Positions 30,654 through 46,249 of a stretch of 64,000 bases of DNA are shown piece after piece. Location: positions 1,798,001 through 1,862,000 of the forward strand of contig NZ_AP025158.1 in NCBI RefSeq assembly GCF_019974155.1, read 5' to 3'. The notes under the pieces were generated by a model. That model did not search any database. It was not told where the DNA came from and was given only the letters and a program-made list of their open reading frames with translations. Both the position numbers and the translations under genes were made by a program. Every line of letters begins with the position of its first letter. Position 1 is the stretch's first letter. Origin of the DNA: Thermus thermophilus (GTDB lineage Bacteria; Deinococcota; Deinococci; Deinococcales; Thermaceae).

Positions 30654-30730
30654 GCGCCCGTAGCTCAGCAGGATAGAGCGGGGGCTTCCTAAGCCCTAGG
30701 TCGGGGGTTCGAATCCCTCCGGGCGCACCA
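30654..30730 (+). tRNA. tRNA-Arg (CCT), integration site
   Basis: 77 bases, full cloverleaf with acceptor GCGCCCG/CGGGCGC, anticodon stem GGGGC/GCCCT, loop TTCCTAA (anticodon CCT), T arm GGGGG-TTCGAAT-CCCTC, encoded CCA. Its 3' 46 bases plus one downstream G are repeated at 46203-46249, showing that a mobile element has integrated here and rebuilt the tRNA. Confidence 0.96.
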
Positions 30731-30731
30731 G
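30685..30731. repeat. attL: direct repeat copy 1
   Basis: 47-bp repeat identical to 46203-46249, starting in the anticodon stem-loop of the intact tRNA-Arg and running one base past CCA. Crossover occurs somewhere inside it. Confidence 0.95.
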
Positions 30732-30829: not shown

Positions 30830-31963
30830 CTACGCCTGCCCCCTGGGCCGGCTCGTCAGCTCCTCGGGGTCCACGACCCAGGCCGCCCGCTCGTGGGCCA
30901 GGAGGTGGCGGTAGATGCCCAGGGTGATGCTGGGGTTGGCGTGGCCCATGCGCTCCGCCACAAGCTCAAGGGGGGCCCCGTTGGCGAGGAGCAGGCTTCC
31001 GTAGGTGTGGCGAAGGTCGTGGACGCGGATGGGGGGAAGGCCCAGGCGGGTGGCCATCTTCCGTAAGGCGTGCCCCAGGGTGTGAGGGTTCAAGGGCCCC
31101 CCCGTCCGCCCCGGAAACACCCAGGCCAACCTGAGCTCCCCGGGCGGGATCCCCAGCCCGAGGAGCTCCTGGTAGCGGGCGCGAAGGCGGGCCAGGGTGG
31201 CGTGGGGGATGGGGATGCTCCGCCTCGAGGAGGGCGTTTTCGGCTCGGTGAGGACCCCCCGCCCGCCCATCGCAGTCCACGCCCGGCGCACATGGAGGAC
31301 CCCCGCCTCGAGGTCCACGTCCTCCCACCGGAGCGCCAGCGCCTCGCCCGCGCGCAGCCCCAGGGCCAGGCAGAGGCGCAGGGCCATGCCCACCTCCCAG
31401 GTGGGCCACGCGTCAAAGGCCCGGAGCAAGGCCTCCACCTCGTGGGGCTCGAGGGCGCGGCCCACGGGGGGCCTTGAGGGGGCCTCCACCCGCACGGCGG
31501 CGGTGGGGTCCCGCGCCACCAGCTCGAGGGCCAGGGCCTCCCGGAACACGGCCCGGGCCCGCTCCAGGACCTTCCTCAGCGACCTGGGAGAAAGCCCCTT
31601 GCGGGCCAGGGCGTCTAGAGCGGCGCGGATGTCGCTTGGGACGATGTCCTGGAGGCGTTTGTTGCCCAGGGTGGGCAGCAGGTACCGCAACTCTCTCTCG
31701 TAGGCCCGGATGGTGGTGGGGCCACGCACCCGGGCCTTGCGCTCAAGCCAGGCCTGGGCGAACTCGGCAAAGGTCCGGGGGTCGCGCTTAGGGATGAGCC
31801 CCAGCCGGTGCTTGACCTGGTACTCCGCCGCCTTCGCCTGCGCCTCCTTGGCCGTCTTGCCGTAAAAGGAGCGGCGCAGGCGTTTGCCGTCCTCCACCAC
31901 ATACACCCGGACCTCCCAAAGGCCCGAGGCGTGGCGGCGCGGTTTAGCGCCCCGTTTCGGCAC
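30830..31963 (-). CDS. int: Tyrosine-recombinase integrase of the element
   Basis: 377 residues. N-terminal AP2-like arm-binding segment (VYVVEDGKRLRRSFYGKTAKEAQAKAAEY), core-binding domain (about 65-150), and catalytic domain with Arg in LGLRAGEALALRWEDVD, HxxR in VHDLRHTYGSLLLANG, His in MGHANPSITLGIY with the nucleophile Tyr in IYRHL. GTG start with Shine-Dalgarno GGAGGTG, overlapping the upstream XRE gene by 20 bases. Directly beside the tRNA copy it recombines, the usual layout of tRNA-integrating elements. Confidence 0.95.
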   Translation of the reverse strand: MPKRGAKPRRHASGLWEVRVYVVEDGKRLRRSFYGKTAKEAQAKAAEYQVKHRLGLIPKRDPRTFAEFAQAWLERKARVRGPTTIRAYERELRYLLPTLGNKRLQDIVPSDIRAALDALARKGLSPRSLRKVLERARAVFREALALELVARDPTAAVRVEAPSRPPVGRALEPHEVEALLRAFDAWPTWEVGMALRLCLALGLRAGEALALRWEDVDLEAGVLHVRRAWTAMGGRGVLTEPKTPSSRRSIPIPHATLARLRARYQELLGLGIPPGELRLAWVFPGRTGGPLNPHTLGHALRKMATRLGLPPIRVHDLRHTYGSLLLANGAPLELVAERMGHANPSITLGIYRHLLAHERAAWVVDPEELTSRPRGQA

Positions 31964-32228
31964 CTTCCACCTCCTCTACCCGCAGGAGCACACACAGGTC
32001 CACGGGCTCGCCCGTGAGCCGCTCGAGGCCCTCCAACACCTGGGCGAGCGTGCTGAGCCTAACGCTTTCAATCCTACCTGCGGCGATCGCGTAGACCGTA
32101 GACGGGTGCATTTCGGGCAAGAGCTTCACCAGCTTGTAGACGCTGAGCCCCCGCTCCTTCAGGTACTCCCGCAGTCGCAACCGAATGCGCTTCCGCCCCA
32201 TTGTCCGGTAGTCTACTACGTCAATCAT
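31944..32228 (-). CDS. XRE-family DNA-binding regulator
   Basis: Up to 94 residues; HTH of the XRE/Cro type (LKERGLSVYKLVKLLPEMHPSTVYAIAAGRIESVRLSTLAQVLEGLERLTGEPVD). ATG 32228 begins the longest frame, but ATG 32201 (MGRKRIRL, 85 residues) is eight bases after TAGACT (minus strand, 32210-32215) and would be a leaderless start, which I prefer. Two near-palindromic TAGT-containing sites flank the start region, suggesting autoregulation. Probably the lysogeny-type repressor of the element, co-transcribed with int. Confidence 0.8.
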   Translation of the reverse strand: MIDVVDYRTMGRKRIRLRLREYLKERGLSVYKLVKLLPEMHPSTVYAIAAGRIESVRLSTLAQVLEGLERLTGEPVDLCVLLRVEEVEGAETGR

Positions 32229-33153: not shown

Positions 33154-34236
33154 CTAGGCTTCCTGGGCCACATTGGCGGGCGGTTTAGGAAGCCGGTCCC
33201 GCCACTCCTCGGGGCGGAGGGCCCCCCGCTTCAAGAGGGCGTCCAGGGCTACCTGAATGTGGGTCCGGGGAAAAGTGGCCTTGCGGGGGCTCCAGGTTTG
33301 GAGCAACTTTTGCAGGGTGGCCCAGTCCCGGGCCCCTTCGTGGCGCACGACCCAGTGGACCGTGGCCAAAAGCTCTAAGCCATAAGGGGTCTCAAACCCC
33401 TTGACCCATTCCGCCGCCCGGGTGGCGGCCTCGTCGGCCTCAGGGTGGTCGGCCAAGTAGAGGATGGCCTCGTTCAGGGCCTGAGGCTCGAGGCGTATCT
33501 GGGAAGCCCCCGCGCGGTCTCCGAAGCCCCGGATGTAGTGGCCCTCGAGGCGGACCAGCACGTGGTTCAAGGGCTCGGCGTAGGGGCCAAACCGCTGACG
33601 GACAAAGGCAAGCCTAAGATCCAAACCCGCTTCCTGAAGGAAGTAGGCCAGCTTTTGGGCCTCGAGGCGGCCCAAGGGTTCCCCAAGCGCCCCATAAAGG
33701 CCGAAGAGCTTGAGCAGGGCGGCCCGGGCAGGGGTGAGGCGGGGCTTGGTCCCTTGGGGAGCGATGGGGTGGGTCTGGGGTTCCCCCGGAGGTTCGTAGA
33801 CCAAGACCTCCACGTCCTCGAGGGGCGCCAGGGCCTCCTGGATGCGCCGCTTGACCTCGGGCCAGGGAAGCTTCCCGTTCCCGGCCCCCAAGGGGGGCAA
33901 GGCGATGGAGCGGACCCGAAGCTCCCGGATTTGGCGCACCAGGTCCTTTAGCCCCTCCTCCACGTACTCCATGCGGGCGGGATGGCGCCAGTGCTTCTTA
34001 GTGGGGAAGTTGAAGATGTAGCGGGGCTGGGCCAGGGGCCCCCGGTCGTGGACGAAGATGCGGCCAATCTGGACCTCGCCCCGCTTACAGGCCTGCACGT
34101 AGGCCTGGTAGTTGTCCGGGAAAGCCCGCTTGAACTGCAAGGCCACCCCCTTGCCCATGACCCCCACGGTGTTCACCGTGTTGACCAGGGCTTCCACTGG
34201 GGCTTTGAGGAGGTCGCCTCGTACGAAGCGGAGCAT
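33154..34236 (-). CDS. darG: DarG antitoxin: DNA ADP-ribosylglycohydrolase (macrodomain)
   Basis: 360 residues. N-terminal macrodomain (about 1-155): MLRFVRGDLLKAPVEALVN, NTVGVMGKGVALQFK, IALPPLGAGNGKLPW, the signature of DarG, which removes ADP-ribose from thymidine in DNA. A C-terminal domain (about 180-350) supplies the second, protein-binding antitoxin activity in the family; it contains LEAQKLAYFLQEAG, reminiscent of Panacea/DUF4065-type domains (inference). ATG 34236 preferred over TTG 34257 because AGAAGGG precedes it. Downstream of darT with a short gap, the standard toxin-first order. Confidence 0.92.
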   Translation of the reverse strand: MLRFVRGDLLKAPVEALVNTVNTVGVMGKGVALQFKRAFPDNYQAYVQACKRGEVQIGRIFVHDRGPLAQPRYIFNFPTKKHWRHPARMEYVEEGLKDLVRQIRELRVRSIALPPLGAGNGKLPWPEVKRRIQEALAPLEDVEVLVYEPPGEPQTHPIAPQGTKPRLTPARAALLKLFGLYGALGEPLGRLEAQKLAYFLQEAGLDLRLAFVRQRFGPYAEPLNHVLVRLEGHYIRGFGDRAGASQIRLEPQALNEAILYLADHPEADEAATRAAEWVKGFETPYGLELLATVHWVVRHEGARDWATLQKLLQTWSPRKATFPRTHIQVALDALLKRGALRPEEWRDRLPKPPANVAQEA

Positions 34237-34244
34237 AGACCCTT

Positions 34245-34874
34245 CTAATAGTACCAACTCCGGCGCACCCGCACCGGGGGATGGGGTAGACCGGGGAACC
34301 GGGCGAGGACGGACTCCACCTCGGCCTTAATGGACTCGTCTATGACGCCGATCTCCTCAATCAACCCCCAGGGAAAGAGGCCCTTGACCAGGAACTCGGC
34401 CTGCTTCTTCTCCCGGCTTTCGGCCCAGTAAGTAGACCGAATGGCCTCCCAGTCCAAAGCCTTCAGGTGCTCCAACTTGTGGAAGAAGCGAACGTACTGA
34501 ACGGCCGCGTGGCGGTCGGTGAACACGAAGGGCAGACGCTCTTCCGCCACCCTTTGGGCGGTGGAGACCAGGTGCAGGATGGGGCGCTGGCCCCCTTGGT
34601 ATTCGGTAGATCCGGTGTGGATAGCGTAGAGCATGGGAGAGCGGGGGCAGAAGTAAAACGGCACGTAATCGTGGAGCTTGCCCCTCGGGCCCACGGGCAC
34701 CACGACTTCTGCCCGGCGGGCCTGGATGTGCCCGTAGGCCACGTTCTGCCGCTTGGGGGGCTTTTGGGATTGGGGGAGGAGGCCCCCCTTTTGGAGGATG
34801 CCCTCGAGGTTTTCCAGGTGGGTGATGTGGTAGATGCGCGTGGGCACCGGATAGACCGGGCTTTGCTGTGGCAT
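34245..34874 (-). CDS. darT: DarT toxin: DNA thymidine ADP-ribosyltransferase
   Basis: 209 residues. ART fold: RIYHITHLENLEGILQKGGLL, VPFYFCPRSPMLYAIHTG, VFTDRHAAV, and E160 in REKKQAEFLVKG, which is the position of the catalytic glutamate described for Thermus aquaticus DarT. It attaches ADP-ribose from NAD+ to thymidines of single-stranded DNA, blocking replication, and acts as an anti-phage system with DarG. ATG 34874 is six bases after a perfect TATAAT (34881-34886, minus strand), so the message should be leaderless; the frame before it is not coding-like. Confidence 0.93.
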   Translation of the reverse strand: MPQQSPVYPVPTRIYHITHLENLEGILQKGGLLPQSQKPPKRQNVAYGHIQARRAEVVVPVGPRGKLHDYVPFYFCPRSPMLYAIHTGSTEYQGGQRPILHLVSTAQRVAEERLPFVFTDRHAAVQYVRFFHKLEHLKALDWEAIRSTYWAESREKKQAEFLVKGLFPWGLIEEIGVIDESIKAEVESVLARFPGLPHPPVRVRRSWYY

Positions 34875-34880
34875 GGTTCC

Positions 34881-34900
34881 ATTATACCTGGGGATATACT
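34881..34900. promoter_or_regulatory. Divergent -10 boxes of darT and mod
   Basis: TATAAT read leftward (34881-34886) six bases before darT ATG, and TATACT read rightward (34895-34900) seven bases before mod ATG. Only 33 bases separate the two starts, so both mRNAs are probably leaderless and the promoters share space. Confidence 0.7.
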
Positions 34901-34907
34901 CTTCCTC

Positions 34908-36350
34908 ATGCCAGCCTTGGAGTGGATCGGCAAGCAGGCGGTGGTGCGGCACCACTTGGAAGTCCCTTACCGCATCCTCGCCCCGGTGCCCGAACTCTCC
35001 TACGGTGAGGGCGAGAACCTTTTGGTGGAGGGGGACAACCTCGAGGCCCTAAAGGCCCTCCTCCCTGAGTACCGGGGGCGGGTGAGGCTCATCTACATAG
35101 ACCCCCCCTACAACACGGGCAACGAGGGCTGGGTCTACAACGACAACGTGAGCAGCCCCGAAATCCAGGCCTGGCTGAAGAAGGCGGTAGGCCCGGAAGC
35201 GGAAGACCTCTCCCGGCACGACAAGTGGCTTTCCATGATGTATCCCAGGCTCAGGCTCCTCCACGAGCTTTTGCGGGAAGACGGAAGCCTGTGGATGAGC
35301 ATAGACGACAACGAGGTCCACCGGGCGAGGATGCTCCTAGACGAGATTTTTGGGCCTCAAAATTTTGTAGCCACGGTGGTTTGGGAACGTTCGGATAGTC
35401 CTAGAATGGACGCTTCCTATTTTTCGGTGCGACACGATTACGTTTTGGTGTATGCGAAAAACAAACCTTTTTTCAGGGTAAAGAGATTGCGTGACAACGG
35501 GGGAGCACCTTCGCACTACAACCGTATTGACGAACACGGAAGACGTTATTATCTGAAGCCTCTTCGGGCTATGGGACAGGCAGATAGGCGTGAGGACAGG
35601 CCGTCAATGTACTACCCGATAGAGGCCCCAGATGGTAGTTTGGTTTATCCCCAAAAACAAGATGGTTCGGCTGGGAGATGGCGCTGGTCAAGGGAAAAAC
35701 TTCTCCAGAAGCAACATCTCTTAGAGTGGGTAAGGGGACCTGAGGGTTGGACTCCCTACTATCGCATCTATTATGCAGGAGATCAGGGTACGGAACGCCC
35801 TCCCGAAACCATCTGGTTTCACACAGAAGTGGGCAGCAACCGAACAGCGGCTAAGGAAACGAAAGAAGCCTTCGGTGGCCAAGACCTATTTGACACACCA
35901 AAACCCTTAGGGCTTCTCCAGCGCATCCTGCAGATTGCCACCAACCCCCATGACGGGGACATCGTCCTGGACTCCTTTGCCGGTAGCGGCACCACGGGGC
36001 ACGCGGTGCTCAAGCAAAACGCCGAGGACGGGGGCAACCGGCGCTTCATCCTGGTGGAGCTGGACCCTAGGATCGCACAGAACATCACCCGCAAGCGCCT
36101 GGAGTACGCCGCCAGGACGCATGGGGGCGGCTTCCGGTACCTGCGCCTGGGGGAACCCCTCTTCACCCCAGACGGGCGCATCCGGGAAGGGGTGGACTAC
36201 CTCACCTTGGCCCGGTACGTCTACTACCGGGAGACGGGAGAACCCTTGCCCGAGACCTTCACCCCCCCTCTTTTAGGCGTGTCCCAGCGCGGGGTGGCGG
36301 TCTACCTCCTCTATAACGGGGTGCTGAAGGACAAGTCCCCCAAGGGCTGA
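34908..36350 (+). CDS. mod: Type III restriction-modification Mod (adenine methyltransferase), C-terminus lost to IS
   Basis: Site-specific DNA adenine-N6 methyltransferase and target-recognition subunit. 480 residues remain: catalytic motif IV DPPYNT at about 65-70 precedes the SAM motif FAGSGTTG near 358, a beta-class order typical of type III Mod. Between them lies the target-recognition region (about residues 145-330), markedly AT-richer than its flanks. ATG 34908 chosen; the longer frame upstream is antisense to darT. An IS4-family element inserted after codon 480 supplies a TGA as its first bases; the original last 49 codons lie at 37521-37680. Catalytic motifs are intact, so activity may persist. 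Confidence 0.92.
   Translation: MPALEWIGKQAVVRHHLEVPYRILAPVPELSYGEGENLLVEGDNLEALKALLPEYRGRVRLIYIDPPYNTGNEGWVYNDNVSSPEIQAWLKKAVGPEAEDLSRHDKWLSMMYPRLRLLHELLREDGSLWMSIDDNEVHRARMLLDEIFGPQNFVATVVWERSDSPRMDASYFSVRHDYVLVYAKNKPFFRVKRLRDNGGAPSHYNRIDEHGRRYYLKPLRAMGQADRREDRPSMYYPIEAPDGSLVYPQKQDGSAGRWRWSREKLLQKQHLLEWVRGPEGWTPYYRIYYAGDQGTERPPETIWFHTEVGSNRTAAKETKEAFGGQDLFDTPKPLGLLQRILQIATNPHDGDIVLDSFAGSGTTGHAVLKQNAEDGGNRRFILVELDPRIAQNITRKRLEYAARTHGGGFRYLRLGEPLFTPDGRIREGVDYLTLARYVYYRETGEPLPETFTPPLLGVSQRGVAVYLLYNGVLKDKSPKG
36338..36346. repeat. 9-bp target duplication, left copy
   Basis: CCCCAAGGG, identical to 37521-37529 on the other side of the IS. Both copies lie in the mod reading frame. Confidence 0.9.
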
Positions 36351-37520
36351 GCTCTCATCACTTTCCTCCCCCCAGTTCCTGAAGCAACCTGACCAGCTCC
36401 TCCACCACTGCTTCCCTCCAAGGCGGGGGCCCCTGGGCCAGGGCGATCCGGCCCAGACGGAAGAGGCTTTGCCGCTCGGGATGGGCCAGAAGCCGGGGAA
36501 GCCATTCCCTGCCCTGCAAGCGCGCCCCCAGAAGGACCAAGAGCGCCATCCCCAAGGCCAGAAGCCATAACCACCCCCTGAGGCTCGCCCCCGTCCGCAG
36601 CCGATGGCGGTCCAGCCCAAACCCCTGCCCCTTCAGGTCCCTAAACCCCTCTTCAATCCACATCCGCCACCCATAGGGCGGCTCCCCCCCAAAAGGGCCC
36701 GAATAGGCCAGATACCAGGGATCCCGACCCCCTGGGTACACCAGGAGGGTGACTTCTACCCCCTCCCCACCGTGTCCGAAAAGGCGGACCTCCTCCCGCA
36801 GGGGGTGGACCACACGCTGGTAGCCCTCCTTCAGGGGAAGGCGCTTCCCCCCTTGGGGTTCCACCTCCCGGTTCTGCCGCAGGCGGATGAGGAAGCCCAT
36901 GCCCCACCCCTGGAGCTTTCGCATCAGGGAGACCCGGTCAAAGCCGCGGTCCAGGAGGAAGAGGGGGGTATATCCCAGGTCCTGGACGGCGCGGCCCAGG
37001 CGGTGGAGGAACTCCTCCTCCACCCGGTTTTGACTGGGGAAAGGGGAGAGGGGGTGAAGAGCGAAGGCCACCACCAGGGCCCTTCCCTTGAGGGGAAGGG
37101 CGGCCACCAGGGCTTGGTGCCTACCGTCCTCTGTGAAGGTCCAGTCCACGATGAGGGGGAGGGGGCGGTCTTTGGGGAAACGAGGGACGAGGAGGGGGAG
37201 GAGGGCTTCGGTGAGGGCCCAGGGGTCTTGCAGGGTGGGGTGATGGAGGAAGCGCCAGAGGCGATTGAGGCGGCTTTGGGCCAGGGTGGGGAGGGGGGTT
37301 CTGCGGGCGAGGTCGGAGAGGGTGGGGTCCAGGGGGGTAGTGAGGAGGGTGGACAGGAAGAGGGCGAGGTTGGAGCGGATGGTTTTCCTGAGGGAGGCGA
37401 AGACCTTATGGACCCAGAGGGTGATAACTTGGGAAAGGGGGGTGGTGGGCGGCACACCTTACTTACCCCCCTCTTCTCTTCCCTTGTCAAGCCCCAGCCC
37501 TCAAAGTGATGAGAGCTCAG
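36347..37520 (-). mobile_element. IS4-family insertion sequence, 1174 bp
   Basis: Perfect 18-bp terminal inverted repeats (CTGAGCTCTCATCACTTT at 36347-36364 and its complement at 37503-37520), flanked by a 9-bp target duplication and containing one transposase gene on -. All ends are intact, so the insertion is probably recent and may still be mobile. Confidence 0.96.
36358..37455 (-). CDS. tnp: IS4-family DDE transposase
   Basis: 365 residues. First Asp in PLIVDWTFTEDGRHQ, second in PLFLLDRGFDRVSL, and the IS4 hallmark Y-(2)-R-(3)-E-(6)-K in YGWRMWIEEGFRDLKG. GTG start at 37455; the TGA stop lies within the left terminal repeat. Full length, no frameshift. Inserted opposite to mod. Confidence 0.95.
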   Translation of the reverse strand: MPPTTPLSQVITLWVHKVFASLRKTIRSNLALFLSTLLTTPLDPTLSDLARRTPLPTLAQSRLNRLWRFLHHPTLQDPWALTEALLPLLVPRFPKDRPLPLIVDWTFTEDGRHQALVAALPLKGRALVVAFALHPLSPFPSQNRVEEEFLHRLGRAVQDLGYTPLFLLDRGFDRVSLMRKLQGWGMGFLIRLRQNREVEPQGGKRLPLKEGYQRVVHPLREEVRLFGHGGEGVEVTLLVYPGGRDPWYLAYSGPFGGEPPYGWRMWIEEGFRDLKGQGFGLDRHRLRTGASLRGWLWLLALGMALLVLLGARLQGREWLPRLLAHPERQSLFRLGRIALAQGPPPWREAVVEELVRLLQELGGGK

Positions 37521-37680
37521 CCCCAAGGGGGGAAACGCCCTCACCCGGGAGGTCCTGGCCCACCTGCCCCCTTTTGACGGCCCCAAGGTGGTCTACGGCA
37601 CCTCCTGCCGCCTGAACCCCGCCACCCTGAAGGCTTTGGGCATCACCTTCCGCCACATCCCTTATGAGGTGGCCCAATGA
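37521..37680 (+). pseudogene. Severed 3' end of mod
   Basis: Starts with the second CCCCAAGGG and continues the mod frame: GNALTREVLAHLPPFDGPK...HIPYEVAQ, 49 codons then TGA. The stop overlaps the res start (ATGATGG), showing that res was translationally coupled to mod before the IS landed. No own start codon is evident. Confidence 0.9.
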
Positions 37681-40163
37681 TGGAGCTGAAAACCTATCAA
37701 GAGGAGGCTCTAAAGGCTCTGGAGGACTTCCTCCACCGGGTAAGGGTTCACGCGGACGCCGGCCTTCCCAACCCCTTGGAGCAGGCCTACCGCGAAGTGG
37801 CGGGGAGGTATCTGGACAACCCACCTCCTTACTACGAACCGGTGGGCCTCGAGGGGATCCCCTACGTGTGCTTCCGCATCCCCACGGGCGGGGGCAAAAC
37901 CCTCCTGGCGGCCCACGCCTTGGCCCCGGCCCGGCGCTTCCTGGGCCAAGACGCCCCCGCCGTGGTCTGGCTCACGCCCACGGAGGCCATCCGCCAGCAG
38001 ACCTTGCGGGCTTTGAAGGACCCCCGCCATCCCTACCGTCAGGCCCTCGAGGGGGCTCTGGGTGAGGTCCGGGTCATGGACCTACGGGAGGCCCTGGCCC
38101 TGACTCCCGGGGACGTAGGCGCGGTCGGCCTGGTGCTGGTGGCCACCCTCCAGGCCTTCCGGGTGGAGGAAACCGAGGGGCGCAAAGTCTACGAGGACAA
38201 CGGCCACCTCATGGCCGTCTTCGGGAACCTCGAGACCGCCCTTCCGGAAGGGGCATCCTCGCCCCCGGAAGGGGTGGGGCGGTACTCCCTGGCCAACCTC
38301 CTCCGCCTCATGCGTCCCATCGTGGTGGTGGACGAGGCCCACAACGCCCGCACCCCCCTCTCCTTTGACACCCTGGCCCGCTTGGAGCCCGGGGTCATCC
38401 TGGAGTTCACCGCCACGCCCCGGGAGGACTCCAACGTCCTCTTCGCCGCCACGGCCCACGAGCTTCACCGGGAGGGCATGATCAAGCTGCCCATAGAGCT
38501 CGTGGTGCTGAAGGACCGGGAGGCGGTCCTACAGGCGGCCCTGGCCAAGCGGAAGGACCTCGAGGCCCTGGCCGAGGGAAGCCGGGAGTACCTCCGCCCC
38601 ATCCTCCTGATCCAGGCCGAACCCAAACGTGGCGAGGACCCCTTCACTTGGGAAAGGGTCCGCTCCTTCCTCCTGGAGCTCGGGGTAAAGGAAGAACAGA
38701 TAGCGGTCTCCACGGGGGAACGGGACGACCTCACGGGCCAGGACCTCCTCTCTCCCTCCTCCCCCGTGCGCTACGTCATCACCGTGGACAAGCTCAAGGA
38801 GGGATGGGACTGCCCCTTCGCCTACGTGCTGGCCTCGGTGCGCTCCCTGAAGTCGTCCACGGCCATTGAACAGGTGCTGGGCCGGGTGCTGCGGATGCCG
38901 GGGGCCAGGCCCAAGGAGCGGGAGGAGCTCAACCGGGCCTACGCCTTCGCCGTGTCCGAGGACTTCTGGGAGGCGGCCAACACCCTCCGGGAAGCCCTGG
39001 TCCTCGAGGGGTTTGAGCGCTACGAGGCCGAGCGGGCCGTGTACGCCGTGGGCTTGGGCTTGGAGGAGCGCGTGCCCCTCAAAGCCCATCCCAAGCCAGA
39101 GGTCCTGGAGTCCCTAGGGTCCAAGATCGCCTACGACCCGAAGACCAAAACCCTGGTCCTCAAGGAGCCCCTGACCCCTAGCGAAAAGGCCATCCTCCGC
39201 GAGGGGCTGAAGGAGGAGGACCGGGACAAGCTTCCACAAACCGTTCGCACCCCCTCCGAGGAGGGCAGGGTCCTGGAAGTACCCCTCCTCGCCTGGCACG
39301 GGGAGCCCCTGGAGGCCGAGCACTTTCTGGAGGAGGGGTGGAGCCTGGCGGGTCGGGACGCCCACGTGGACTTCGTCCCGGGGCCCCTGGGGGTGAGGGG
39401 GGAGATCGGCCTGGAGGGGGGCCGGGTGCGCATCGCCCGCCTGGAGGGGTTGGACCGGGCGGGGAGGCTGTTCGGTCCCCACGTGGGCTGGACCCTGGAA
39501 AGCCTCGCCCTTTGGCTGGACCGCCACATCCCCCACCCCGACCTGCCCCAGGAGGAGACCCTGCCCTTCCTCTACAGGGCCTTGGGGGGGCTTCTGGAGC
39601 GGGGCTTCGCCCTAGAGGATCTGGTGGCGGAGAAGCGGCGGCTCAGAGACCTCCTGGAGGCCAAGATCCGCGCCCACCGGGAAGCGGCCCGAAAGGAGGT
39701 CTTTCAGCGCCTCTTGAAGAACCCTCCTGCCAGCCTGGGGACCCTCACCTTGCGGTTGGAGGGGGACTACTTCCCGTCCAACCCCTACCGGGGGGCTTAC
39801 GTCTTCCGCAAGCACTTCTTCCCGGTCATCGCCGACCTCGAGGACGGCACGGAGGAGTTCCAGTGCGCCCGCCTTCTGGACGAGCTAGACGAGGTGGAGT
39901 TCTGGGTGCGCAACTACCCCACCTGGCGCCACGCCTTCCGCCTGCCCTACCCCGGTGGCACCTTCTTCCCGGACTTCCTGGCCAAGCTTCGGAACGGGAC
40001 CCTTCTCGTGGTGGAGTACAAGGGGGCGCACCTGGCGCACACCCCCGAGACCTACGAGAAGGAGGCCATTGGCCAGCTCTGGGCCCGGAAGACGGGCAAC
40101 CGCTTCCTCATGGTGCGCACCCTCCAAGAGCTTGATGCCCTCCGCCAAGCGGCCCGTCTCTGA
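37677..40163 (+). CDS. res: Type III restriction endonuclease Res subunit
   Basis: 828 residues, the ATP-dependent translocase/nuclease that cleaves when paired with Mod. SF2 helicase motifs: Walker A PTGGGKTLLAAHAL near residue 65, DEAH box VVDEAHNART near 220, TATPR near 242, and motif VI EQVLGRVLRMPGA near 400. C-terminal PD-(D/E)xK nuclease: FFPDFLAKLRNGTLLVVEYKG (about 765-785). Intact. Because the IS separates it from the mod promoter, expression may depend on outward transcription or be reduced. Confidence 0.95.
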   Translation: MMELKTYQEEALKALEDFLHRVRVHADAGLPNPLEQAYREVAGRYLDNPPPYYEPVGLEGIPYVCFRIPTGGGKTLLAAHALAPARRFLGQDAPAVVWLTPTEAIRQQTLRALKDPRHPYRQALEGALGEVRVMDLREALALTPGDVGAVGLVLVATLQAFRVEETEGRKVYEDNGHLMAVFGNLETALPEGASSPPEGVGRYSLANLLRLMRPIVVVDEAHNARTPLSFDTLARLEPGVILEFTATPREDSNVLFAATAHELHREGMIKLPIELVVLKDREAVLQAALAKRKDLEALAEGSREYLRPILLIQAEPKRGEDPFTWERVRSFLLELGVKEEQIAVSTGERDDLTGQDLLSPSSPVRYVITVDKLKEGWDCPFAYVLASVRSLKSSTAIEQVLGRVLRMPGARPKEREELNRAYAFAVSEDFWEAANTLREALVLEGFERYEAERAVYAVGLGLEERVPLKAHPKPEVLESLGSKIAYDPKTKTLVLKEPLTPSEKAILREGLKEEDRDKLPQTVRTPSEEGRVLEVPLLAWHGEPLEAEHFLEEGWSLAGRDAHVDFVPGPLGVRGEIGLEGGRVRIARLEGLDRAGRLFGPHVGWTLESLALWLDRHIPHPDLPQEETLPFLYRALGGLLERGFALEDLVAEKRRLRDLLEAKIRAHREAARKEVFQRLLKNPPASLGTLTLRLEGDYFPSNPYRGAYVFRKHFFPVIADLEDGTEEFQCARLLDELDEVEFWVRNYPTWRHAFRLPYPGGTFFPDFLAKLRNGTLLVVEYKGAHLAHTPETYEKEAIGQLWARKTGNRFLMVRTLQELDALRQAARL

Positions 40164-40295: not shown

Positions 40296-40865
40296 TTACC
40301 CTCCGCCCGCCTCGCCTGGAGCCTGAGGAAGGCTAGCCTGCCCCTGGACCTCCAGGAGAGCCGTCAGCAAGGGCACGCACCGCACCCCGAAGGCGAAGGC
40401 CACATAGGGTAGGCGTGGCCTTCCCGTGATTAGGCCACTCGCCCCGTCCAGCTGGGGCACCACGTGCCTTTCCTGGGTAATCAGGGTGAGGTTGTGGACC
40501 TTGGCCAGGGCCACCAGGGTCGGGTCAGCGCCTCGGAGAAAAGGCTCAGCGTCCTCAGGGGCATAGTGTTCCCTCACAAAGTGGGCCACCTTCTCCAAGG
40601 CGTCAAAAAAAGCTTCGGTAACTTCCAGAAGCTTGTACTGCCCGTCTAAGGACTTCAGGAGGTCATGGCCCGGACCCCGCTTTCGCAAGATCTCGTCCCT
40701 CACTTCGCGCCCTAGCCGAAGGATGCCCCTTTTGATTCCGTCCCGGAACCAGGCCTCCAGATGGGCCTTGGCCTCCTCTGGTGATCTCCCGAGGGCCTTA
40801 GCCAGGGCTTCCAGGAAGCCTGGGACGAAGGGAGTGATGATGGCGTTGGCGTCAAGTAGGTACAC
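40296..40865 (-). CDS. PIN-like (DUF4411-type) putative toxin
   Basis: 189 residues. Starts VYLLDANAIITPF, the first acidic motif of PIN-type RNases, with further acids in EVRDEILRK and the C-terminal GADPTLVALAKVHNLTLITQE. Overlaps the upstream XRE-ImmA/IrrE gene by 14 bases (GTG 40865). The two-gene arrangement matches DUF4411/ImmA toxin-antitoxin pairs, so this is probably the RNase toxin. RNase activity is inferred. Confidence 0.75.
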   Translation of the reverse strand: MYLLDANAIITPFVPGFLEALAKALGRSPEEAKAHLEAWFRDGIKRGILRLGREVRDEILRKRGPGHDLLKSLDGQYKLLEVTEAFFDALEKVAHFVREHYAPEDAEPFLRGADPTLVALAKVHNLTLITQERHVVPQLDGASGLITGRPRLPYVAFAFGVRCVPLLTALLEVQGQASLPQAPGEAGGG

Positions 40866-41985
40866 CCTTGCCCTCCAGGAAGGCCCAGGCCGTCCTGAGG
40901 TCCACATTGAGGAGAAAGGCCACGTCCTTGGCGTCCACTTCCCCCTCTAGGGCCGCCCGCCTGACCTCCCGCACGAAGGCGGGGCTGTTCTGGACCACCA
41001 GGGTCTTCCAGAAGTCCCCGCCCCCCTTCCTGGGACGGGGAGGCGCGGTCTTCCGCAGGGCCTCGAGGGCCTCCATGTACCCCTCCCGGTGCACAAGTTC
41101 CAAGCGAAAGGCCCGCTCCAGGGCGGCCCTCGGGCTCACGAAGAAGCACCGGGAAGCCTCCCGGGCGGCCTCCAAGGGGGGAAGGTGCCCGTTCCAAGCC
41201 ACGCGAAACTCCTCCTCGGGCATCAGAAGCTCCGCGGCCACGTGGTCCGCCCAGATCTCCACCTCGTCCCGGGCCTCCTCCTCCAGCCCGCCCTCCAGTC
41301 CCCCTTCTCCCCGCCACACGTGGGCCAGCTCGTGGGCCAGGGTGAAGACCTGGCGGGAAGGGTGCTCGCGGGCGTTCAGGAAGACCACGGGGGCCACGGG
41401 GTCCACCAGGGCGAAGCCGGAGAACTCCTCCGGGTCGTAGGTTCTCCGGGTGTGGGTGCCCACGTGCCCTTGCCGGAGGACCAGAACCCCAAGGGCTTCC
41501 GCCCCGTCCGCAAGGGCCTTGAGGAAGCCTTGATGGTCCCGGGCCCTCCTCCGCAAGGCTTCCACTTCCAGGAAGGTCGCCATCTCGCGGGCCACCTCCG
41601 CCGGGGAAGCGCCCTTGCCGCTTCCCACGAAGGGAAGGGGCTTCCCCTTGCGCTCCCGCCACCACTCCTGCTTACGCCGCGCGTCGTGGTAGGCCTCGAG
41701 GAGCTCCGGGCTTGGGGGGGCTTGCCGCCCTCTTCCCCGACGAAAGTCCCTCAAAGGAAGCTTGACCTCGGGCGGGGGCAGGAGGAGGTGCCCCAAGCCC
41801 AAATGAAGGGCCTGGGCCAGCTTCAGGGCCTGGGGGTAGGTGGGCTTCTCTTTCCCCTCTAGCCAGCGCTCCACCTTCTCCGGCTTGACCTGGACCTTCC
41901 GGGCGAGGCTTTCTGCCTCGAGGCCCGCCCAGTCCATGGCCCACCGGAGGGTTTCTGGCTTGATGGGTACCTCTACCGTTTTCAT
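40852..41985 (-). CDS. XRE HTH + ImmA/IrrE metallopeptidase, putative antitoxin
   Basis: 377 residues from ATG 41985 (earlier ATG 42009 also possible). N-terminal HTH (AMDWAGLEAESLARKVQVKPEKVERWLEGKEKP), then a central DUF955 zinc-peptidase domain with FTLAHELAHVWRGE and downstream acidic ligand region DEVEIWADHVAAELLMP. In mobile elements ImmA cleaves repressors; in pairs like this one it acts as regulator/antitoxin. A third possibility is control of the element's own repressor during DNA damage. Confidence 0.82.
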   Translation of the reverse strand: MKTVEVPIKPETLRWAMDWAGLEAESLARKVQVKPEKVERWLEGKEKPTYPQALKLAQALHLGLGHLLLPPPEVKLPLRDFRRGRGRQAPPSPELLEAYHDARRKQEWWRERKGKPLPFVGSGKGASPAEVAREMATFLEVEALRRRARDHQGFLKALADGAEALGVLVLRQGHVGTHTRRTYDPEEFSGFALVDPVAPVVFLNAREHPSRQVFTLAHELAHVWRGEGGLEGGLEEEARDEVEIWADHVAAELLMPEEEFRVAWNGHLPPLEAAREASRCFFVSPRAALERAFRLELVHREGYMEALEALRKTAPPRPRKGGGDFWKTLVVQNSPAFVREVRRAALEGEVDAKDVAFLLNVDLRTAWAFLEGKGVPT

Positions 41986-42022
41986 CCCGGCCCCCCTAGG
42001 GGACTCCATTCTACCCCCGGCC

Positions 42023-42322
42023 TTACGCTGGCAACGCACCCTTGCTCAAGGCCTCGAGGAGCCGGGCAAGTTCCTCCGGGGGGAAGCGGTTGCCCGCCAT
42101 GTTCCAGGCCCCCTGAACGCCGTGGACTTCGAGGACCGCCCCCACCTTGCGCATGACCTCGGGAGGGAGGGGGCGGGGCGGCGCGGCAAACCAGGCGGCC
42201 CGGATTTCGCGCCCGGTGGGCCGGACGGGCACCGCCCGATGGGGTTCCTCGCTCCCGGTGCAGACCTCTGGCGCAACAGGGGGCTCCACTACCCGGTCAG
42301 GCCGAAACCGCCGGTACCCCAT
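42023..42322 (-). CDS. Small hypothetical protein
   Basis: 99 residues, not recognised. N-terminal half basic and proline-rich (MGYRRFRPDRVVEPP...REIRAAWFAAPPRPLPP), C-terminal half helical and amphipathic (EELARLLEALSKGALPA). It begins right beside the iteron array and ends upstream of the ImmA/IrrE gene (ATG 41985), so it may be in one transcript with the TA pair. Confidence 0.5.
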   Translation of the reverse strand: MGYRRFRPDRVVEPPVAPEVCTGSEEPHRAVPVRPTGREIRAAWFAAPPRPLPPEVMRKVGAVLEVHGVQGAWNMAGNRFPPEELARLLEALSKGALPA

Positions 42323-42338
42323 ACGACCTCCTCCACGC

Positions 42339-42603
42339 GGCTATGGCTACGGTGGCTACTTTGGCTACTAAGGGGAATTTTCTCCGTCCTGGACGGAGAA
42401 AATCCCGTAGCCACAGGGTGGCTACGGAGTGGCTATTGTGGCTACGATCGGCTACGGTAGCCGGGGCCCCGGGATGGGGCTCCCCATGACCGTAGCCGTT
42501 CCGTAGCCAACCGTAGCCAACAGTAGCCAGGGGGTGGCTACTGTTTTTTTGCCGTCCTGGACAGCGCTTGTGGGGTTCAGTAGCCAAAATAGCCACTATA
42601 GCC
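42339..42603. repeat. 18-copy GGCTAC iteron-like array
   Basis: Hexamer GGCTAC/T or its complement GTAGCC occurs at 42339, 42345, 42354, 42363, 42407, 42420, 42431, 42440, 42450, 42457, 42492, 42503, 42513, 42523, 42536, 42580, 42589 and 42598. Within clusters the spacing is 9-11 bp, about one helical turn, as for arrays of a DNA-binding protein. No gene lies here. It sits directly downstream of the replication genes, so a replication origin, partition site or operator is plausible. Confidence 0.8.
42377..42403. promoter_or_regulatory. 27-bp palindrome inside the iteron array
   Basis: ATTTTCTCCGTCC - T - GGACGGAGAAAAT, perfect 13-bp arms around one base. The core GTCC-T-GGAC recurs at 42554-42562 after a run of seven T. 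Likely a dimer binding site or origin cruciform. Confidence 0.65.
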
Positions 42604-42612
42604 ACCCCCCGC

Positions 42613-44175
42613 TCAAAGCGCCCGGGGGTTCAACTCCCAGACCTCCCTGCGCCCCTCCCGATGGACGCGAACGTACCCGTGGGCCTCGAGGAGCCGCAGG
42701 GCCTCCCGCACGGCCTGGGTGGTGCGCCCCACGGCCCGGGGGCCGTAGCGCACCACGTCCGGCGTGGCGATGGGCGACGCGCCCCCCCGCGCCCGCTCCC
42801 GCAGCCACTCCAGGAGGCGCGCGGCCCGCCGAAGGGGCTCGGGCACCCGGGCCCCCTCCATCAGCCGCCGGTGTTCCAGCATGTACCACTCGGCTAGGGC
42901 GATGCCCCGCTCCATGTGCTCGGGGCCCAGGCGGGTGAGGGAAGGGTCCTCGAAGAGGCCCAGGACCAGGGCGAGGCGCACCGCGTGCTCAGGCGTTTTG
43001 GCTGCGAACGCCCGGGCCTCCCCAAGTTCCTCCTTCTGCGCCTCCAGGTGCTCAAAAAACGCCACGTACAGCCGCTTGGCGGCGGGGTGCAGGGGGAGGC
43101 TGGGGAGTTCCAGCCCCCGCACCCGGGCCTCGGGGTCGTCCCGGACGTTCCCGGCGGTGGCCTCGAGGAGGGCGTCCAGACGGCCCTGGTAGGCGATGTA
43201 GGCGGGGTTTCGCGTCAGGTCCTCCTCCACGTAGCGCCGGGGGCCCACCTGGGGGGCCCAGGCGGTGAAGAAGCGCGCCAAGAGTCCCTGGTTTCGCACC
43301 AGGCGGTCCTCGAGGAGGTCCCGGGCCACCTCGGGTTGCATGCCCAGGTGGACGCTGAGCCGCCTCCCGAGGAGGAGGCGCTTCCCGTCCCCCTGCCGGG
43401 CCCGCTCCACTCCCTGCCCGTCCCAGAGGCGGCTCAGGACGGAGATGGTGTAGAGGCGCCTCTCCTCGCTCATGGCGTGGCCGCCCAGGAACACGCCGGC
43501 CTCGGAGACGAACAGCCCCACGCTGGGCCAGTCGTCCGCCAGGGCGCTCACGATGGCCTCGGTGGTGGCGTCCGAGAGGAGGAACATCCCGCTCCACGGC
43601 CTGGCCGGGGGGAGGCCCAGGGCCTTCAGGGCCTCGGCCCGCTCCTCCCGGGAGAGGCCCTTCTCCCCCTGGATGCGCCGGCGCTCCGCCTCCCAGGCCT
43701 CGCGCTCCGCGCGCCAGGCCTCCTCGGCCAAGGCGGCAACCTCCGCCTTCGCGGTCTGCCACGCCCGGGCGGGCAGGAGGGCGAGGCGGTCCAACTCCGT
43801 TTTGCGCTCCCCCGAGTCGGCCACGGTCAGGAAAAACAGGCTCGCCGGGTACGTCCGCCCGTCCACCACGGCGTTGGCGATGCCCTGGGCCCCCAGGGAC
43901 GCCCCGGCGAGGAACGCGGCGGCGGTCAGGGCCTCCGCGCCCTGGACCACGCGCAGGGCCTCCCGCACCACGCCCTCCAGGGGCCCGAGGGCCTCGAGGG
44001 GGTAGGGCTCGGGCGGGTCGGCCTCCCGGAACAGGGGCAGGGGCTCCGGCCAATCGTCCACGTCCTCGGGCCGCACGTAGGGGGCGTTGCGCAGGGCCTC
44101 GAGGGCCTTCTCGGGGTCCAACTCATCGGCCTGTTGCGAAATACCGTTCAAAACCTTAGAGTGTTCCTTGAGCAT
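42613..44175 (-). CDS. DUF3987 protein, helicase-like replication protein of the element
   Basis: 520 residues. ATG 44175 follows GAGGAGG. Pattern EALTAAAFLAGASLGAQGIAN then ASLFFLTVADSGERKTELDRL, where GERKT sits at the P-loop position (normally GxGKS/T), then SGMFLLSDATTEAIVSAL, LFVSEAGVFLGGHAM and a C-terminal winged-helix-like region (ATPDVVRYGPRAVGRTTQAVREALRLLEAHGYV). DUF3987 proteins accompany primases on phages and integrative elements. Overlaps the primase gene by 20 bases. Confidence 0.8.
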   Translation of the reverse strand: MLKEHSKVLNGISQQADELDPEKALEALRNAPYVRPEDVDDWPEPLPLFREADPPEPYPLEALGPLEGVVREALRVVQGAEALTAAAFLAGASLGAQGIANAVVDGRTYPASLFFLTVADSGERKTELDRLALLPARAWQTAKAEVAALAEEAWRAEREAWEAERRRIQGEKGLSREERAEALKALGLPPARPWSGMFLLSDATTEAIVSALADDWPSVGLFVSEAGVFLGGHAMSEERRLYTISVLSRLWDGQGVERARQGDGKRLLLGRRLSVHLGMQPEVARDLLEDRLVRNQGLLARFFTAWAPQVGPRRYVEEDLTRNPAYIAYQGRLDALLEATAGNVRDDPEARVRGLELPSLPLHPAAKRLYVAFFEHLEAQKEELGEARAFAAKTPEHAVRLALVLGLFEDPSLTRLGPEHMERGIALAEWYMLEHRRLMEGARVPEPLRRAARLLEWLRERARGGASPIATPDVVRYGPRAVGRTTQAVREALRLLEAHGYVRVHREGRREVWELNPRAL

Positions 44176-45193
44176 CAGTTTCCTCCTCTCCCGGGGCGGC
44201 CTCCACCCGCCCCGCAAGCTTTTTCGCCACCAGAACATCAAGCCAGTCCGCGCCGTCTGGCGGCACGGCCAGCTTCACCGCGATCCCCAGCGCCAAAAGC
44301 TGCTTCGCCAGTTTTTTCCCAGCTTCCACCCCCCTCTCGTCCCCGTCAGCCGCGATCAAGACCTCTCCCACCCCGGGTGGGGGCTCCCACGCCTCGAGGC
44401 CCCCCGCGCTCACGGCGGCCCAGGCGGGAAGGCCCGCGGCCTCGCGCACCGCGAGGGCGGTCTCCACCCCCTCGGCCACGGCCAGGACCCCGCCCTCCGG
44501 GGCGTAGAGGCGGATGGCCGCCCCCTTCAGGCCCCCCTCGAGGACCGCCTTGGTGAGCTTTTTGGGGCTCCCCACCGGGGCCTTCCCCCTCCCGTCCGGG
44601 CTCAGATAGACGCGGTGCAGGGCCACCAGGCCGTGCTGAGTGTGCTCCACCCGGGCGAGGAGGGCGGGGAAGGCCCCCAGGATCTTCCCCTCCTCCCGGT
44701 ACTCCAGGCCGGGGTGGAGGCGGAGGTTCTGGAGGCCGGGGAGGACGGCCTCGAGGCTCAGGCCCCGGGCCTCGAGGTAGCGCCGGCCCAGCTCCGCGCC
44801 GGGGCGGTCAAGGGGGACGGCCCGGGCCCAGATGGCCTCGAGGAGCCTCCGCCGCCCCTCGTCCGGTCGGGGCTCGGGGCGGGGAGAGGGCGCGGGCCGA
44901 ACGCGGCGGAAAACCTTCCCCGCAAGCTCCTCGTGGGAGTCGGGAAACAGGTCGCGCCACGCAAGGCCTAGGGCCTCGAGGACGGCCTCCGTGGGGCAAC
45001 CCGCGAAGCAATGGATCAAGAGCCGCCCCTGGGGGCTGAGGCAGATGGAGAGGCTGGGATCCCTGTCCTCGTGGGCGGGGCAATGGCCGATCCACCGGCC
45101 CTGGCCCGAAGGGCGAGCCCGGGTGGCCCAGAGGATGTGCTCGAGGACCCCCTCGGGGCCTAGGGTGCGAGTACCGGCGGGCACCGGGTTCAT
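44156..45193 (-). CDS. CHC2 zinc-finger and Toprim primase of the element
   Basis: 345 residues. N-terminal CHC2-type zinc finger (IGHCPAHEDRDPSLSICLS...IHCFAGCP) and a C-terminal Toprim domain with Glu in LAVAEGVETALAV and DxD in IAADGDERGVEAG. Synthesises RNA primers, probably at an origin on the element. ATG 45193 chosen for GGAGGTGA just upstream. Cotranscribed with DUF3987. Confidence 0.88.
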   Translation of the reverse strand: MNPVPAGTRTLGPEGVLEHILWATRARPSGQGRWIGHCPAHEDRDPSLSICLSPQGRLLIHCFAGCPTEAVLEALGLAWRDLFPDSHEELAGKVFRRVRPAPSPRPEPRPDEGRRRLLEAIWARAVPLDRPGAELGRRYLEARGLSLEAVLPGLQNLRLHPGLEYREEGKILGAFPALLARVEHTQHGLVALHRVYLSPDGRGKAPVGSPKKLTKAVLEGGLKGAAIRLYAPEGGVLAVAEGVETALAVREAAGLPAWAAVSAGGLEAWEPPPGVGEVLIAADGDERGVEAGKKLAKQLLALGIAVKLAVPPDGADWLDVLVAKKLAGRVEAAPGEEETDAQGTL

Positions 45194-45198
45194 CGTGC

Positions 45199-45378
45199 TC
45201 ACCTCCCTCGCCCCTCGAGGGCGGGGGCGGTTTTTTCCGCCCCCTCCTCTTCGCGGTGCAGGTCCCAATCAACCGCCTCGTTGGCCGCGTACAGCGCGTC
45301 AACGCGCCCCTCTGGCGTGAGCACCCGGAGAAGTGCCCGAATAACGGCCAACAACAGCGCGTCAATCGCCCTACGCAT
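45199..45378 (-). CDS. Small helical protein, 59 residues
   Basis: Unrecognised short gene: MRRAIDALLLAVIRALLRV..., then VDALYAANEAVDWDLHREEE and an Arg/Gly end. ATG follows GGAGGGTA and overlaps the stop of the upstream HTH gene; its own stop lies six bases before the primase ATG. The tight packing in the replication operon supports a real gene. Confidence 0.6.
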   Translation of the reverse strand: MRRAIDALLLAVIRALLRVLTPEGRVDALYAANEAVDWDLHREEEGAEKTAPALEGRGR

Positions 45379-45574
45379 TACCCTCCTCCCCGGGCAGGCG
45401 GCCGTGCTCCAGAAGGGCCTCGAGGACGCTGCGGTGGATGAAGAGCTTACGACCGATTTTCACGCCGTAGCGCCGCATGAACCGCCGCACGCCGTCCCGC
45501 CCCAGGCCCAGTTGCGCGCCCAGGATGGGGGCAACCTCGTTGAAACCCAGAAGCTTCTTCTCGCCCTTCATCAC
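45371..45574 (-). CDS. Small excisionase/MerR-type HTH protein
   Basis: 67 residues: LLGFNEVAPILGAQLGLGRDGVRRFMRRYGVKIGRKLFIHRSVLEALLEHG, the layout of helix-turn-helix 17 / excisionase-like proteins (HTH, then wing with Lys/Arg, then helix). First gene of the replication block; overlaps the 59-residue gene by eight bases. Likely an element regulator. Confidence 0.7.
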   Translation of the reverse strand: MMKGEKKLLGFNEVAPILGAQLGLGRDGVRRFMRRYGVKIGRKLFIHRSVLEALLEHGRLPGEEGNA

Positions 45575-45713: not shown

Positions 45714-45746
45714 CGCTCCCACGCCCCCCGTGGGAGCGCCTTTTTT
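45714..45746 (+). terminator. Strong rho-independent terminator on +
   Basis: Perfect 10-bp stem CGCTCCCACG / CGTGGGAGCG, five-C loop, CC and six T. It points rightward although every annotated gene here reads leftward. A TTGCCG (45594-45599), 17 bases, TAGGAG (45617-45622) pair upstream could start a transcript of about 115 bases that ends here. Confidence 0.7.
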
Positions 45747-45942
45747 ACCTCCTTCCCCCCAATCCCCTTTCCAGAAACGCCTCGAGTTCCTTGTACGGGA
45801 TGAGCGTGCGCGCCCCGATTTTCATGGCCTTGAGCTCCCCGCGCCAGATCGCGCGGTAGATCGTAACCCTGCTCACCGAAAGCAAACGCGCGGCCTCGTT
45901 CACGCTCACGGCCAGGGGGGGCTGCCCGGTGCTCTGTTTCAT
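45745..45942 (-). CDS. xis: Excisionase-type HTH protein (AlpA/Xis-like)
   Basis: 65 residues: SVNEAARLLSVSRVTIYRAIWRGELKAMKIGARTLIPYKELEAFLERG, a classic helix-turn-helix 17 excisionase fold. Located near attR at the opposite end from the integrase. Probably directs excision or activates the element; name assigned by position and fold. Confidence 0.75.
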   Translation of the reverse strand: MKQSTGQPPLAVSVNEAARLLSVSRVTIYRAIWRGELKAMKIGARTLIPYKELEAFLERGLGGRR

Positions 45943-46202: not shown

Positions 46203-46249
46203 CTTCCTAAGCCCTAGGTCGGGGGTTCGAATCCCTCCGGGCGCACCAG
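46203..46249. repeat. attR: direct repeat copy 2
   Basis: 47-bp repeat of the tRNA-Arg 3' half (anticodon loop through CCA plus one base), identical to 30685-30731. This is the original chromosomal 3' end displaced by integration; it has no acceptor 5' half and is not a functional tRNA. Confidence 0.95.

Follow-up and report, generated by a model that had tools for sequence, protein, structure and literature searches.

A mirror-symmetric iteron array behind a DUF3987 helicase gene: a candidate replication origin of a tRNA-Arg island in Thermus thermophilus

In SaPIs, the iterons that the Rep helicase binds through its C-terminal domain, apparently as two hexamers, immediately follow the rep gene (PMC7581432), and the SaPI origin was described by Ubeda 2007, as cited in the same paper. 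SCCmec Cch2 also binds its downstream repeats in vitro via its C-terminal domain (PMC7581432). The arrangement is the same in the Gram-negative PICIs, where two iteron sets flank an AT-rich region (PMC6092414). DUF3987 proteins have been independently predicted to be replicative helicases of mobile elements (PMC5862659), and our literature search found no origin reported for them.

We analyzed 64,000 nucleotides of Thermus thermophilus DNA (the window, to which all plain coordinates refer) containing an array of short repeats behind a DUF3987 gene. As in the SaPI/PICI origins, the iterons lie immediately 3' of what is predicted to be a self-loading initiator helicase, the C-terminal domain is the predicted binder, the iteron word is element-specific, the primase is separate, and the element is an integrated island. 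There are two inverted iteron sets, with seven different cores in Thermaceae, and the C-terminal DNA-binding domain would here be a modeled winged helix on an MCM-like AAA+ protein. However, the helicase belongs to the DUF3987 family, not to the DUF927 or D5-type families. In place of two iteron sets around an AT-rich region, the Thermaceae array is strictly two-fold, has a divergent pair on the inside and a constant box in each half, and is GC-rich at its centre. The integrase, the site-specific att repeats and the empty sites are PICI-like. Because the centre is not AT-rich and a need for a helper phage would be no more than presumed, the element is not filed as a PICI; on the present analysis, we would class the array as a new variant of the SaPI/PICI mode of replication origin, in a DUF3987-type integrated element. 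The SCCmec Cch2 origin likewise has its repeats just downstream of the helicase gene, but it has only three direct repeats, no mirror array and a helicase of a different family. In the phage P4 alpha/ori1-crr system, the C-terminal domain of the helicase binds iterons, a further likeness to the binding predicted here; however, P4 alpha is a fused primase-helicase, and the P4 system has two separate sites.

Two other elements resemble this one in gene content. According to its excerpted description (PMC7693054), Thermus ICETh2 is also tRNA-integrated and has 47-nt att repeats, a tyrosine integrase, and a replication module of primase and helicase, but these are PrimPol and another helicase, whereas a Toprim/DUF7146 primase and DUF3987 are present here; the same excerpts gave no origin. 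The Vibrio PICMI satellites share the integrase, an AlpA-like regulator and a DUF3987 protein, there called a primase, but they have fis as the att site and a size of 6 kb (PMC10803314). No mention of iterons was found in the PICMI text (PMC10803314).

Architecture of the array and its constant box

The array holds 18 GGCTA(C/T) sites in 265 bp (14 GGCTAC/GTAGCC and 4 GGCTAT/ATAGCC), nine on each strand. The initial annotation had listed 18 hexamers, all of which were found where it placed them, and the comparison it proposed, hexamer density in shuffles and in the genome, sets the region apart. GGCTAC occurs 61 times in the whole window against 29 +/- 5 in shuffles, and the richest 265-bp stretch of the window outside the array has 3 sites. 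In the 2.17-Mb genome, where site counts are pattern searches, matches to GTGGCTACN{1,12}GGCTA are confined to the array; a triple-site pattern gave 6 matches, all within it, and close site pairs are likewise found only there.

The sites were also called helically phased. The steps of 9, 10 and 11 bp hold inside the blocks; however, the blocks are 15, 35 and 42 bp apart and therefore do not form one continuous helical face, and the best single period is ~9.5 bp, not 10.5 bp. The mirror symmetry and two palindromic CGTCCTGGAC boxes had been overlooked. The whole array is a large imperfect dyad, in which 16 of the 18 sites are matched, at the mirrored distance, by a site pointing the other way; this score was reached by none of 300 randomizations of spacing and orientation and by 3 of 300 shuffles of orientation only. 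Each half contains one palindromic box beside an A or T run. Starting at the helicase gene, an outer block is followed by a box, a divergent pair and an inner block up to the centre, beyond which the elements recur in reverse order (Table 1). The GC content dips to 50% at the boxes and the outer blocks. A scan for the DnaA box TTWTNCACA with up to one mismatch found none within the array, which differs in this respect from a classical iteron plasmid origin.

The divergent iteron pairs resemble outward-pointing intrinsic terminators (42404-42428 on the minus strand and 42519-42545 on the plus strand); the other arrays inspected by eye do not have such hairpins. A tRNA origin of the array was ruled out, the tRNAs being located elsewhere. 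Searching a plasmid collection with the array at the DNA level gave no match.

Table 1. Coordinates in the window of the array components, the element ends and the element genes.
Feature	Coordinates	Strand	Remark
Iteron array, candidate replication origin, 18 GGCTA(C/T) sites	42339..42603		dyad axis ~42474
Outer iteron block adjoining helicase stop codon, 3 sites, 9-bp steps	42580..42604	-	
Constant palindromic box copy 1, CCGTCCTGGACAG, adjoining T tract	42552..42564		
Divergent iteron pair (< >), inner side of box copy 1, also terminator-like on +	42523..42541		
Inner iteron block, gene-proximal half, 10-11 bp steps	42492..42528	-	
Central spacer, GC-rich 75-78%, with single unmatched inner site at 42457	42457..42491		
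Inner iteron block, distal half, 4 sites, 9-11 bp steps	42420..42455	+	
Divergent iteron pair, mirror of 42523-42541	42407..42425		
Constant palindromic box copy 2, core CCGTCCTGGACGG at 42384-42396, within TTTTCTCC...GGAGAAAA	42378..42402		
Outer iteron block, distal, 4 sites	42339..42368	+	
attL, 3' end of tRNA-Arg(CCT)	30685..30731		
attR, 47-nt copy of tRNA-Arg 3' end, element end	46203..46249		empty sites in relatives
Tyrosine integrase	30830..31963	-	Pfam 2.8e-27
Cro/C1-type repressor	31944..32228	-	
HTH + IrrE-type peptidase	40852..42039	-	
99-aa protein of unknown family, directly beyond array	42023..42322	-	
DUF3987 (YfjI-type) MCM-like AAA+ helicase, C-terminal winged helix, proposed origin-binding initiator	42613..44241	-	Pfam, AF2, VIA-align, PHROG DNA helicase
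Toprim primase (DUF7146 + Toprim_3)	44156..45268	-	
67-aa protein without family match	45371..45574	-	
65-aa HTH_17 protein (excisionase/AlpA-like)	45745..45942	-	

The constant box has a second context. CCGTCCWGGACGG is rare in Thermus genomes and occurs at 5 places in this one, where the reversed control pattern occurs at 0. The four copies outside the array (G000:C1 352971, 765224, 780386 and 1185212; loci L066-L069) each adjoin a CRISPR array, and such boxes stand in other Thermus CRISPR leaders (L072 and L074-L079). Across the genus, such a box mostly begins 31-33 bp ahead of the first CRISPR repeat. The box shared by element origins and CRISPR leaders hints at a common host factor. Since the same box occurs in both, a host protein is the simplest shared factor, and the box is probably bound by a second factor that is not element-specific, most likely a host DNA-architectural protein.

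The host element and its helicase

The array belongs to an island integrated at tRNA-Arg; its 15.5 kb include genes for an integrase, a primase, DarTG and type III restriction-modification. In 8 of the other Thermus loci examined the site is empty, with both flanks and the tRNA-Arg end falling within a few hundred bases. The genes for the primase and the 67-aa and 65-aa proteins are placed upstream of the DUF3987 gene, and the first iteron begins ~12 bp past the DUF3987 stop codon, directly 3' of the predicted initiator helicase gene. Among the element proteins tested by Pfam, there was no terminase or capsid gene product and no member of the ParA/ParB family.

The DarTG toxin-antitoxin/defence pair lies at 33154-34955, and the type III restriction-modification genes occupy 34467-40163, where a DDE transposase gene (36358-37455) separates mod from res. 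An IrrE-type protein with a DUF4411 or PIN-like ORF stands beside an array both here (40296-42039) and in an element of genome G005 (L035:2595-4323).

The product of the DUF3987 gene matched Pfam PF13148 at 1.2e-70, with 239 bits against a gathering score of 27. An AlphaFold2 model of the helicase built on 16 relatives had a pLDDT of 82. VIA-align superimposed it on the MCM protein 6mii_B with a Z of 18.5 over 267 residues (rmsd 3.5), and Foldseek returned 8 matches below 1e-3, all of them MCM-containing complexes. Searching solved structures by sequence with the DUF3987 alignment turned up no convincing match; therefore, the MCM relationship is one of fold comparison only. The modeled C-terminus is a winged helix of three helices (residues 479-496, 504-510 and 519-531, numbered in the 553-residue stop-to-stop frame) followed by a two-stranded wing. 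A search of a phage collection with the protein gave no match, and two scans of viral contigs, each with a single protein, found no relatives.

Conserved layout and changing repeat words

T. parvatiensis carries the same array in an element that is ~97% identical, and G007 has it minus one 10-bp unit. In 16 of the 19 Deinococcota loci examined, a short word, repeated 8-15 times with copies pointing both ways, forms an array directly 3' of the DUF3987 gene. The words differ by locus (GGCTA, TGCGAA, TGCTAA, ACCCGCA, ACTGAC, CCCGGCA and CCCGACA, and also the AAGGGGGGT and GACAAAAC types). The seven named words share, save for the number of units, the orientation string > > (>) box < > > > (>) axis < < < (<) > box < < (<); in some arrays, single sites are absent or a box is too degenerate to be scored. 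The Thermaceae layout, >>> box <>>>> axis <<<<> box <<<, follows DUF3987 genes with unrelated repeat sequences. The steps are 8-9 bp in the outer and 10-11 bp in the inner blocks, and within a word family the sites fall at almost the same distances from the axis, as in the ACTGAC loci, where sites stand at +/-10, 20, 31, 43, 89 and 97. Each half has 6 sites in ACTGAC arrays, 5 to 7 in CCCGGCA/CCCGACA arrays and 7 in ACCCGCA arrays. A strict search for box pairs across the phylum gave 2 matches, both unrelated, because the boxes vary.

Beyond the phylum, Psychrobacter plasmids have a GCTTAA array directly after the DUF3987 gene, a Legionella plasmid has 3 sites, a 40-bp gap and 3 inverted sites, and a Paracoccus plasmid has site sets of the forms >> <<< and >>> <<<. 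The inverted sets of Legionella and Paracoccus are simpler versions of the Thermaceae layout. No clear array follows the DUF3987 gene in the E. coli, Citrobacter and L041 examples, and the E. coli and Citrobacter cases mean that the rule is not universal. Nor is DUF3987 the only possible partner, because elements of G005 and G003 carry arrays like these next to replication genes of other types. Of three related array copies in G005, two are nearly identical; G003 and G004 have boxes within a GCGCACG array, which in G003 is near integrase and PrimPol genes. In G005 (L035 10620-10800), a similar GCGGCTATT array with box-like palindromes falls within the 3' coding end of an ORF of 652 aa. This ORF has no Pfam match but a P-loop motif by eye; it is part of a replication module and is preceded by RecT-like and Toprim primase genes.

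The genome from which the window comes (G000) has a second DUF3987 gene (G000:C1:1093388-1094377; L058, L070) with its own CCCGGCA array in the same layout. The helicases of L058 and of L051 in G011 share 96% identity over the ATPase region and 85% over the C-terminal 75 residues. Their arrays differ in each of the 12 iterons, always by the same base (CCCGGCA vs CCCGACA), and adjacent residues of the winged helix have changed as well (REVYTKEW vs REVYRNEW). A second case is a trio in which the helicases with TGCTAA arrays have EVYQFG at this position and the one with the TGCGAA array has EVYRLG. However, over all pairs the repeat core correlates no more strongly with the winged helix than with the whole helicase (Mantel r 0.80 vs 0.84); this co-variation cannot be separated from overall helicase relatedness, and co-evolution of iteron word and winged helix is therefore only suggestive. 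In G011:C9 (L051/L085), the CCCGACA array is directly followed by CCCGGCA sites, as if two related origins stood in tandem.

Origin reading, alternatives and mechanism

We consider it very likely that the array is the replication origin of the tRNA-Arg element, bound by the winged helix of the DUF3987 helicase in a SaPI/PICI-like mode. An origin was among the roles named in the initial annotation, and it is strongly supported by the fixed position 3' of the helicase gene, the layout kept while the words diverge, and the C-terminal winged helix of the model. The integrase, the att repeats and the clean empty sites in relatives also support it. The reading rests on position, architecture, conservation and the helicase fold class, from which we infer the binding step; the most likely binder of the iterons is the helicase as modeled, not the 65-, 67- or 99-residue proteins. 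The statement that no gene explains the array does not hold, since the adjoining DUF3987 gene does. Points against an origin are that there is no AT-rich centre for melting and no DnaA box in the array, and that some DUF3987 genes have no clear array.

The array is extremely self-complementary (fold z -11.0 as DNA and -12.3 as RNA), its mirrored iterons share more flanking bases than non-mirrored ones (3.18 vs 2.62 of 6), and two hairpins are terminator-like, so that the inverted iterons could be there to base-pair as foldback DNA or structured RNA, for example a regulatory RNA or a terminator after the helicase gene. However, any inverted iteron set folds in this way by construction, and the flank likeness could stem from shared context or inverted duplication. 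In the ACTGAC family the RNAalifold covariation term was unfavourable (+3.28), with many uncompensated mismatches; a stem partner in G007 has changed without compensation; and a search of the array against Rfam gave no match. The unfavourable covariation, the uncompensated spacer mismatches and the G005 array of the same style within the coding end of an ORF favour DNA sites over RNA, and a role in base-pairing is very unlikely.

The initial annotation had also proposed a master operator or a partition site, neither of which is supported, the array tracking the DUF3987 gene. Operators can be repeated, and the same element encodes an HTH_17 protein, one of the small proteins (65, 67 or 99 aa) by which an operator array could control the element. 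The array is nevertheless placed 3' of the operon, with no sigma-70-like site and hence no recognizable promoter; 18 sites with two-fold symmetry are beyond usual operators; and between L058 and L051, core and helicase winged helix have changed together. We give such an operator only a slim chance. Partition sites of the parS/parC type typically consist of short repeats in arrays, and a centromere-like site would be bound by a ParB-type or ribbon-helix protein; with no ParA/ParB family among the element genes tested, arrays trailing the helicase gene in many elements, and a chromosomally integrated host element, this is highly improbable. A chance insertion of a mobile palindromic repeat (MITE/REPIN-like) could produce multiple copies such as those in G005, but this genome has a single array with the GGCTA core, and the same gene-relative position is taken by unrelated sequences in other genera, which makes an insertion barely conceivable.

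If the array is the origin, replication may proceed as follows. The element would excise, and the MCM-like AAA+ ring of DUF3987 would then bind the GGCTA iterons via its C-terminal winged helix. One ring per inverted half would give two head-to-head helicases, an arrangement that the two halves would suit. The strands would open, the Toprim primase of the element would prime, and a host polymerase would copy the circle. Iterons and winged helix would co-evolve, leaving each element with a private origin. We offer tentatively, with more doubt than confidence, the fuller proposal that the array is a fixed template for loading two head-to-head MCM-like bacterial rings, in which iteron spacing is kept and the word is free to change with the winged helix, while the CGTCC-W-GGACG box and A-tract, common to Thermus CRISPR leaders, recruit a host architectural protein in the role that IHF has elsewhere.

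Satellites, islands and plasmids commonly encode DUF3987 proteins. If the origin reading is true, the array would provide a precise and portable rule for locating DUF3987 origins, each paired with its helicase, and the mirror layout would be a bacterial test case for the loading of MCM-like double hexamers. The one-base switch between CCCGGCA and CCCGACA, in helicases with nearly the same ATPase region, is a natural experiment on the change of initiator specificity. The constant box connects element origins to CRISPR leaders, and it may reveal an unknown Thermus DNA-bending factor.
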